A DNA stretch of 64,000 nucleotides from Pleomorphomonas sp. PLEO (GTDB lineage: Bacteria; Pseudomonadota; Alphaproteobacteria; Rhizobiales; Pleomorphomonadaceae): the NCBI RefSeq assembly GCF_041320595.1, contig NZ_CP166625.1:784501-848500 (forward strand), written 5' to 3'. The position numbers were made by a program, and so were the translations under genes. Shown in pieces: positions 43,755 to 45,132 of this stretch. The notes below the pieces were generated by a model that ran no database searches, was not told where the DNA came from, and saw nothing but the letters and a program-made list of their open reading frames with translations. Each line of letters opens with the position of its first letter. The stretch's first letter is position 1.

Positions 43755-43778
43755 AAAATGCTGTGCAATCGGTTTGGC

Positions 43779-44810
43779 TCAGGCGGCCTTCTTGGGCTTC
43801 AAGAGGCCACGATTGATCAGCACCTCGGCGATCTGCACGGCGTTGAGCGCGGCGCCCTTGCGGAGATTGTCGGAGACCACCCACATGGTCAGGCCGTTCT
43901 CCACCGTGATGTCCTCGCGGATGCGGGAGATGTAGGTGGCGTCTTCGCCAGCCGCCTCGTAGGGGGTGATGTAGCCGCCGGGCTCGTGCTTATCGATGAC
44001 CAGGCAGCCGGGGGCCTCGCGCAGGATCGAGCGGGCCTCGTCGGCGCTGATCGGCTGGTCGAACTCGATGTTGACCACTTCCGAATGGGAGACGAACACC
44101 GGCACGCGCACGCAGGTGGCGGTCAGCTTGATCTTCGGATCGAGGATCTTCTTGGTCTCGGCGACCATCTTCCACTCTTCCTTGGTGTAGCCGTCCTCCA
44201 TGAAGACGTCGATGTGCGGAATGAGGTTGAAGGCGATGCGCTTGGGGAACTTCTTGGCTTCGACGGGGTCGGACACGAAGATGGCACGGGTCTGGGTGAA
44301 CAGCTCGTCCATCGCTTCCTTGCCGGCGCCCGACACCGACTGGTAGGTCGAAACGACCACGCGCTTGATGTGGGCCTTGTCGTGCAGCGGCTTCAGCGCG
44401 ACGACCAGCTGGGCGGTGGAACAGTTGGGATTGGCGATGATGTATTTCTTGGTGAAGCCGGCGACGGCATCGGCATTCACTTCGGGGACGACCAGCGGCA
44501 CGTCCTCGTCATAGCGCCAGGCAGAGGAATTATCGATGACGACGCACTTCTGAGCGCCGATCTTCGGCGACCATTCCTTGGAGATCGATCCACCGGCCGA
44601 CATGACGCAGATGTCGATGTCCGAGAAGTCGACGTGCTCGAGCGCCTTCACCTTCAGCGTCTTATCGCCGAACGATACTTCGGTGCCCTGGCTCCTGCGT
44701 GAGGCGATAGCCACCACCTCATCGGCGGGAAAGCCGCGTTCGGCGAGGATCGAAAGCATTTCGCGGCCCACGTTTCCGGTGGCACCGACCACAGCGACCT
44801 TGTAACCCAT
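43779..44810 (-). CDS. asd: Aspartate-semialdehyde dehydrogenase
   Basis: Reduces aspartyl phosphate to aspartate semialdehyde, the branch point to lysine/diaminopimelate, threonine, methionine and isoleucine. 343 residues; the NADP motif VVGATGNVGREML is at the N terminus, the catalytic Cys is C130 in NPNCSTAQL, and the distal block with IEFDQPISADEARSIL and the C-terminal GLTMWVVSDNLRKGAALNAVQIAE are typical. The C-terminal tail is Lys/Ala-rich. Its upstream region contains a Thr-rich leader peptide and alternative hairpins (see entries at 44847-45132), suggesting control by threonyl-tRNA supply. Confidence 0.97.
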   Translation of the reverse strand: MGYKVAVVGATGNVGREMLSILAERGFPADEVVAIASRRSQGTEVSFGDKTLKVKALEHVDFSDIDICVMSAGGSISKEWSPKIGAQKCVVIDNSSAWRYDEDVPLVVPEVNADAVAGFTKKYIIANPNCSTAQLVVALKPLHDKAHIKRVVVSTYQSVSGAGKEAMDELFTQTRAIFVSDPVEAKKFPKRIAFNLIPHIDVFMEDGYTKEEWKMVAETKKILDPKIKLTATCVRVPVFVSHSEVVNIEFDQPISADEARSILREAPGCLVIDKHEPGGYITPYEAAGEDATYISRIREDITVENGLTMWVVSDNLRKGAALNAVQIAEVLINRGLLKPKKAA

Positions 44811-44846
44811 GTTGGACTGACCTTCTGAAAGTATGGCTTTGCGCCG

Positions 44847-44905
44847 AAAAAGTCGTCCCCCGCCTTGTCTGGCGGCCGGTCGCTCTTCAGTCTGTCAGGG
44901 AGACG
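44847..44905 (-). terminator. Attenuator terminator hairpin upstream of asd
   Basis: On the minus strand CGTCTCCC (44905-44898) can pair with GGGGGACG (44861-44854, one G-U), enclosing a small inner hairpin CCGCC-agacaa-GGCGG. Two bases later comes TTTTT (44851-44847). The U-tract lies 37 bases before the asd start codon, so this is a terminator inside the leader, not at a gene end. The inner and outer stems partly compete for the same G-run. Confidence 0.6.
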
Positions 44906-44908
44906 TTC

Positions 44909-44946
44909 GAGGAGGCCACCATCCGCCTCCTCTGACCCCGAGGAGG
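44909..44946 (-). promoter_or_regulatory. Mutually exclusive hairpin arms in the asd leader
   Basis: Three arms read 5' to 3' on the minus strand: CCTCCTC (44946-44940), GAGGAGGC (44932-44925) and GCCTCCTC (44916-44909). The middle arm can pair perfectly with either the first (7 bp) or the third (8 bp), but not both. This is the switching geometry of ribosome-mediated attenuators. The first arm starts about 26 bases after the leader peptide stop codon. Confidence 0.6.
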
Positions 44947-44971
44947 ACGGTGCGGGGCGAGGAAGCGTCGA

Positions 44972-45076
44972 TCACGTCGTGGTCGTTTTCGTCGTCGCCG
45001 TTTTCGTCATGGCAAGCCCGGCCGGGACAACACCCAGCTGGCAAGCGGCATGACGGGAACCATTCGCGAACGACAT
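44972..45076 (-). CDS. Putative threonine-rich leader peptide of asd
   Basis: A 34-codon frame from the ATG at 45076 to TGA at 44972-44974. The last twelve residues are MTKTATTKTTTT: eight Thr codons (seven ACG, one ACC), two Lys and one Ala in eleven positions. A good ribosome-binding site (GAGAGAGGA) lies seven bases before the ATG. An internal ATG at codon 23 could start a 12-residue version, but lacks such a site. The Thr/Lys bias matches the end products of the aspartate pathway, which asd feeds. The role, by analogy with enteric thrL, is to stall ribosomes when charged Thr-tRNA is low. Novel or known status cannot be judged here. Confidence 0.68.
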   Translation of the reverse strand: MSFANGSRHAACQLGVVPAGLAMTKTATTKTTTT

Positions 45077-45103
45077 GGACCATTCCTCTCTCGAATGTCG
45101 GGC

Positions 45104-45132
45104 TTTATGGCGGAAAGGGCAGGGCGGGTCAA
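45104..45132 (-). promoter_or_regulatory. Sigma70-like promoter of the asd leader transcript
   Basis: On the minus strand TTGACC (45132-45127), a 17-base spacer and CATAAA (45109-45104). The predicted transcript start near 45097 gives a leader of about 20 bases before the peptide ATG and about 285 bases before asd. Confidence 0.6.

Follow-up and report, generated by a model that had tools for sequence, protein, structure and literature searches.

A threonine- and lysine-rich leader ORF with co-varying alternative RNA arms upstream of asd in Pleomorphomonas and other Hyphomicrobiales

The asd gene in the window (the whole 64,000-nucleotide stretch of Pleomorphomonas DNA that was analysed) is preceded by a leader open reading frame (ORF) rich in Thr and Lys codons and by alternative RNA arms, and both are genuinely present. 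We propose that they form a cis-acting leader-peptide switch through which asd expression follows the charging of tRNA-Thr and probably of tRNA-Lys, a reading to which we give a probability of roughly 0.55. Its output is more likely to be on asd translation than on termination. The sensing part appears well supported by conservation and an output at the ribosome-binding site (RBS) is likely; the direction of the switch is inferred.

The name asd, given to the gene in the initial annotation, holds, as TIGR01296 matches it with 477 bits at a cut-off of 324. The source genome consists of one contig of 5.48 Mb, and the closest named relative among the matches listed is Pleomorphomonas oryzae (Asd 98%). 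Upstream of hom and thrC of the same genome Thr-rich leaders were looked for and none was found. Opposite asd, the plus strand carries an open frame of 314 codons (43758-44702), which is probably a GC-rich mirror frame.

All leader elements lie on the minus strand (see the table). The promoter-like hexamers were found where they had been placed before, TTGACC at 45132-45127 and, after a 17-nt spacer, CATAAA at 45109-45104, and the genus alignment retains TTGAC in 14/14 and CATAAA in 13/14 members. An automatic promoter scan returned no promoter at its threshold, and this site scores below it. The claimed RBS of the leader is present as well; GAGAGGAATGGTCC is kept in 13/14 genus members and has diverged in L113. 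The frame itself (MSFANGSRHAACQLGVVPAGLAMTKTATTKTTTT) starts with the ATG at 45076 and ends with the TGA at 44974-44972, and the earlier description of 34 codons with eight Thr and two Lys in the last eleven is correct. Likewise, the middle one of the three arms described downstream can pair with either neighbour (A:B 7 pairs, B:C 8 pairs). The first arm follows the leader stop after 23 nt and not after 26 as originally given. The Shine-Dalgarno (SD) sequence of asd is AGAAGG in 12/14 genus members; the other two have AAGAGG and AAAAGG.

Table. Elements of the asd locus in the window.
Feature	Position	Strand	Basis or remark
Promoter-like TTGACC-17-CATAAA	45104..45132	-	sequence
Leader ribosome-binding site GAGAGAGGA	45084..45092	-	sequence; 7 nt 5′ of leader ATG
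34-codon leader ORF, tail MTKTATTKTTTT	44972..45076	-	tail conserved in genus; Thr-rich tail before asd in many families
Arm A GTCCTCCTC	44940..44948	-	pairs with B or D; swap tests
Arm B GAGGAGGC	44925..44932	-	pairs with A or C; genus alignment and swap tests
Arm C GGCCTCCTC	44909..44917	-	pairs with B; B x C swap tests
Arm D GGGGGACG	44854..44861	-	pairs with A; 44-51 nt before asd ATG; genus alignment and swap tests
T5 run	44847..44851	-	terminator tail of the initial annotation; pairs with asd SD in predicted fold
asd Shine-Dalgarno AGAAGG	44821..44826	-	sequence
asd, aspartate-semialdehyde dehydrogenase, 343 aa	43779..44810	-	TIGR01296 asd_B

The ACG/ACC repeats of the tail are low in complexity, as would be expected if the frame were a chance product of such sequence. 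Against this, the Thr codon pattern has a single match in the 64 kb and none in 100 shuffles, and in many families asd is again preceded by such a tail, written in mixed Thr codons; a chance ORF is thus already contradicted and virtually excluded. No other frame end in the window reaches even 5 Thr in the last 11 codons.

Conservation of the frame was examined in relatives, a check that the initial annotation had suggested. The gene was found in 287 of 297 genomes, and the sample comprises 281 asd upstream regions, 269 of them distinct. Loci were drawn from the best matches listed (30 and 90 further stretches), and poorer-matching families are therefore under-sampled; for the Rhizobiaceae-type relatives (61 genomes) 20 loci were added to 30 in hand. 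A frame was counted as a leader if its last 14 codons included at least 5 Thr and it ended 55-200 nt before asd. This is the case in 131/269 distinct regions, so a Thr-rich tail precedes asd in many families, and with at least 4 Thr the number rises to 153/269. The antisense strand of the same regions yielded 0/269 and 2/269, respectively, and order-1 Markov sequences yielded 14/5380 and 84/5380. A further set of 4054 control windows (28 with at least 5 Thr) was dropped as a control, because asd had been mis-placed in reversed and short loci and true leaders were thereby admitted.

At the threshold of at least 4 Thr, the leader is found in all 19 distinct regions of the window's own family (f1), in 45/54 of the Rhizobiaceae-type family f23, in 10/10 of f41, 5/5 of f44 and 8/9 of f28. 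It is present in 7/10 regions of f15 and 4/10 of f42, in 3/3 each of f13, f19, f40, f43 and f45, in 2/2 of f21 and in 1/1 each of f24 and f27. At the same threshold it is absent from f17 (0/7), f50 (0/4), f34 and f35 (0/3 each), f20 (0/2) and f2 and f7 (0/1 each). Altogether, 25 of 80 named loci reach 4 Thr and 21 reach 5; those with a leader include Brucella/Ochrobactrum, Phyllobacterium, Mesorhizobium, Stappia, Siculibacillus, Chthonobacter and Chelatococcus. Among 32 Bradyrhizobium loci a single one reaches 4 Thr (L074, judged from its sequence to be a chance match) and none reaches 5. A class search added 28 loci from other orders, five of which were left unscanned with an unrecognised asd start (L264, L271, L272, L274, L280). 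Of the 23 distinct regions scanned, two reach 4 Thr and one reaches 5 (L265). L276, which passes 4 Thr and was judged to be chance, was dropped, leaving 152 regions and 117 representatives.

The pattern of change within the leader points to selection on its tail. Pairwise comparison of the 12 gap-free genus members gave 455 nonsynonymous and 163 synonymous codon differences in the N-terminal part, which we read as a lack of constraint on this part of the peptide in the genus; the tail of the same members has 2 variable sites in 36. The peptide might instead work in trans as a small protein, for which there is a precedent in what the available text of PMC7298713 proposes for peTrpL of S. meliloti. 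But in the genus the Thr/Lys tail alone is conserved while the N-terminus changes freely, and the length of the peptide varies between families. We consider a function in trans very improbable.

The last 12 codons of the 117 representatives encode 651 Thr and 261 Lys among 1404 residues. The initial annotation had noted that the leader codons fit the pathway in which asd acts, and the recurrence of the Thr/Lys tail before asd in relatives supports this. Both lysine and threonine are made from the product of Asd, and therefore the Lys codons of the leader may take part in sensing, too. Their usage is strongly shifted: AAA accounts for 230 of 278 Lys codons in the last 14 leader codons of the relatives (44972-45007 in the window), as compared to 23 of 469 in 19 asd genes of named genomes, which prefer AAG. 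For Thr, ACG makes up 345/709 codons in the leaders and 116/333 in the same 19 asd genes. Alternatively, AAA might merely keep the RNA unstructured.

Downstream of the leader, the comparison points to two mutually exclusive partners of arm A, B and D, both of which lie upstream of the asd RBS. Swap tests were done with 113 representatives, after removal of L074 (the Bradyrhizobium chance match), L208 (mis-set asd start) and L115 and L118 (much longer spacers). Cognate arms paired better than swapped ones for A x B (z -7.5) and A x D (z -6.7). At least 7 contiguous pairs were found for A:B in 93/113 cognate combinations (65.1 expected from between-family swaps) and for A:D in 90/113 (61.6 expected). 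B x C co-varies as well (z -3.8), as does arm 1, the segment after the stop, with B (z -5.4, mainly in f23). C x D (z +3.0), arm 1 x D, arm 1 x SD and A x SD showed no covariation in these tests. The swap statistics ignore phylogeny within families; a version with one sequence per family (21 families) and the null pairs served as safeguards. In this version A x B (mean p 0.008) and A x D (mean p 0.002) persist, B x C is borderline (mean p 0.07) and the same four pairs are null. A:D, which had been overlooked in the initial annotation, is thus among the two helices best supported between families as judged by these comparisons. Within f1 alone (8 sequences) neither A x D (z 0.0) nor A x B (z -0.7) gave a signal.

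Pairings of arm 1 were rejected as a general element. Arm 1 x B co-varies in f23 (z -4.9) but no longer does so between families (mean p 0.22). Arm 1 paired with D or the SD is common in predicted folds, without overall covariation; hints of covariation come only from the 7 sequences of f41 for arm 1 x SD and from the 8 of f1 for arm 1 x D.

In a blind window-pair map of 35 Rhizobiaceae-type sequences, covariation was strongest for a hairpin termed P3 (z -8.2), followed by a weak pairing of the loop side of A:B with the segment preceding A (z -5.2), by the local hairpin A:B itself (z -4.9) and by the long-range helix A:D (z -4.4). In the alignment of this set, from which L304, L306 and L239 were left out, A:D has 14 double-change cells compared to 6.5 in shuffles (0/500 shuffles reach 14), and A:B and P3 have 11 pairs with a double change compared to 5.4. 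The covariation of A:D within the Rhizobiaceae-type set rests on 3 pairs, a number reached by 199/500 shuffles. Closer to the window, the genus member L104 keeps both helices through compensatory changes: U44941-A44931 of A:B is replaced by C-G and C44946-G44857 of A:D by U-A. In L101, a single change of C44945 to G breaks one pair of both helices. Conservation of the arm pairing, the second check proposed at the outset, is therefore borne out by the covariation of A:B and A:D across families and by the changes in L104. Outside f1, the best long-range helix begins in A in 66/105 representatives, 12-28 nt (median 20) after the stop, and its D arm stops short of the asd ATG by 6-36 nt (median 21); D of the window lies farther away. 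In the remaining 39/105 the best long-range helix is not one of A with the region before the ATG.

A covariance model of A:B and P3 only, based on the 35 Rhizobiaceae-type sequences, gave 28 matches with E up to 1 in a search of 72 sources. Of these, 22 are immediately 5′ of asd in the right orientation and six are on the wrong strand. The best 15 matches are all correct, and ten of them are apparently outside the Rhizobiaceae-type family (L196, L084, L159, L164, L174, L131, L143, L156, L216, L136), where scores are modest (E 0.0001 to 0.16). The model matched neither the window itself nor any of eleven leaderless loci (e.g., L033, L038, L041).

The initial annotation interpreted the locus as classical attenuation of the thrL type, in which a stalled ribosome favours an antiterminator and a terminator forms before asd otherwise. 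In E. coli, the thrL leader of thrABC contains Thr and Ile codons and is followed by a strong intrinsic terminator before thrA. The asd leader is like thrL in its Thr-rich frame, its exclusive RNA helices and its place in the aspartate-family pathway, and it differs in having Thr and Lys codons close to the stop, in its target asd and in having no conserved terminator. The leader and the exclusive arms are what such attenuation would predict. In the window, the T5 run follows the A:D helix after two bases; of 14 genus members, three have T5 and nine have four or more T in a row. Five Rhizobiaceae-type relatives (L235, L237, L246, L029, L035) have CCCGC..GCGGG followed by T-rich sequence. The proposed terminator, a GC-rich hairpin with TTTTT, does not stand: its stem of CCGCC (44875-44871) and GGCGG (44864-44860) ends 8 nt before the T run and is altered in L104, L109 and L113. 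Two terminator scans found nothing on the minus strand of the window, and the run after D is missing in L114, L116 and L117, which belong to other genera of the window's family. Among 114 representatives (L208, L074 and L200 dropped), terminator-like sites were found in five, none of them the window, with 3.0 expected; allowing 4 T gave 17/114 with 9.9 expected, and 11 of the 17 belong to f23. In addition, the usual 3:4 pair of arms, which would be C x D, lacks covariation. An intrinsic terminator was thus rejected as the general mechanism. What remains of the thrL interpretation is the conserved, pathway-matched Thr leader, with A:B and A:D as exclusive, compensated helices. Classical attenuation by termination is in our view rather unlikely, and the locus would work like an amino-acid attenuator, yet without the terminator that defines the thrL type.

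Effects of the leader on Rho or on coupling would do without an intrinsic terminator, and none stands out here. Leader translation or its failure would then expose C-rich RNA to Rho or alter coupling, with the arms only tuning the response; the segment after the stop looks C-rich and U-poor in the relatives inspected. Alone, this would not predict that A co-varies with two partners, and we regard it as improbable, less so than an action of the peptide in trans.

The switch that we favour, acting in cis on asd, could work as follows. A shortage of Thr or Lys would hold a ribosome on the tail, its leading edge covering the segment that directly follows the stop. As the tail is close to the stop, a ribosome waiting on the last Thr/Lys codons covers roughly the first 6-10 nt beyond it. 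Arm A begins farther downstream and is therefore not covered directly. The waiting ribosome would favour the local A:B hairpin, leaving D open, so that ribosomes could load on asd. With plentiful amino acids, the ribosome would terminate and leave, and D would be closed by A or by the post-stop segment itself; when A closes D, B would be held by C or by the post-stop segment. The most economical reading is that the ribosome blocks the post-stop segment, which would otherwise compete for B or D, and thereby leaves A with B and D open. The output would most likely be the initiation of asd translation and not an intrinsic terminator, and Rho-dependent polarity may add to it. Counting against this mechanism, starvation halts a ribosome at the first hungry codon that it meets, so its edge may fall before the stop. 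Furthermore, D of the window, 44-51 nt before the ATG, is outside the usual 30S footprint.

For folding tests L115, L118, L208, L074 and L200 (contig end) were left out, giving 112 representatives. Masking the RNA to the ribosome edge reduced the predicted energy needed to open the asd RBS by no more than it did when the arms were shuffled: 57/112 were above the shuffle mean when masked to stop+24 and 55/112 at stop+9, with hardly any change within f1. Predicted ensembles have at least four expected pairs for A:B in 80/112 and for A:D in 41/112, which changes little on masking. In the window, the A:B state is predicted to be about 9 kcal/mol better than A:D plus B:C. These fold energies neither prove nor exclude the switch, and they do not establish its direction. 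The T5 run and GGAC..GUCC make up an anti-SD hairpin in the predicted fold of the window; this was rejected as it is not kept in L104 or L109.

Translational attenuators are known from ermC and cat, which respond to drugs, and from B. subtilis rtpLP-rtpA, which responds to Trp. The proposed likeness to them is that the position of the leader ribosome sets access to the downstream RBS, with sequestration of the RBS being what we infer for asd. Amino-acid attenuation classically acts on dedicated end-product operons with a terminator as readout. The leader described here belongs to asd, a shared branch-point gene, and has codons for two different end products, and over the many families no terminator is conserved. 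A more far-reaching version, to which we would give somewhat less than even odds, is a terminator-free attenuator throughout the Hyphomicrobiales. Its leader would sense Thr through ACG/ACC as well as Lys through AAA, a codon rare in asd genes, and one anti-purine arm would pair either in a local hairpin or with the stretch immediately 5′ of the asd RBS. If true, translational attenuation would serve to sense two amino acids for the enzyme at the shared branch point of the aspartate family.

A leader of this type has been described in S. meliloti. According to the available text of Hadjeras et al. (2023; PMC10117765), the small ORF SEP5 has six Thr and three Lys codons clustered near its 3′ end and sits in the 5′ UTR of a gene that is called aspartate dehydrogenase there. 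This gene is most likely asd. SEP5 is translated as judged by Ribo-seq and Western blot, was proposed as a possible leader peptide and is described as conserved only in Sinorhizobium (available text of PMC10117765). The same clustering of Thr and Lys codons before asd is seen in the window (8 Thr and 2 Lys in 11 codons), and the Rhizobiaceae-type leaders L295 and L296 end in SKTTAKTTTKTV, a composition as in SEP5. In contrast to the description of SEP5, which includes no RNA switch in the available text of PMC10117765, the leader studied here spans many Hyphomicrobiales families and is accompanied by co-varying arms. In our literature search, PMC10117765 was the only source whose available text describes such a leader, and neither its extension to many families nor the co-varying switch was found. 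The single-organism observation of SEP5 is thus extended to a broad family, and a co-varying switch is added. A comparable element is the serC RNA element of alphaproteobacteria (RF00517, PMC1273637), which likewise lies close to the RBS of an amino-acid gene in the same class; unlike the asd leader, it has no leader peptide described in the available text of that paper. A search of the window against Rfam gave no match at gathering score and four at a permissive threshold, all far below their gathering scores. The order concerned is large and includes rhizobia and relatives of Brucella, and the comparative data set is ready for studying how starvation-sensing uORFs act without intrinsic terminators.

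Some upstream regions of the relatives have other features. Eight Bradyrhizobium-like loci without a leader (L038, L041, L048, L060, L069, L072, L082, L091) have in common a TTTCTCGCATAGAAGC-like motif near the asd start, which is perhaps a promoter. In L088, also leaderless, a tandem unit of ~25 bp (GTTGGATCGGCTTTCGGAGATTGGA-like) lies just 5′ of asd at about 2740-2843 and repeats an SD-like stretch. Very short leaders, e.g., MSTRSPIKTTII or MTTIKTKTTI, were seen in Aurantimonas and some other relatives (L049, L138, L231, L297, L305), and several of them combine Thr and Ile. The start codon of L049 and L138 is located about 8-12 nt after a -10-like box, which suggests near-leaderless translation.
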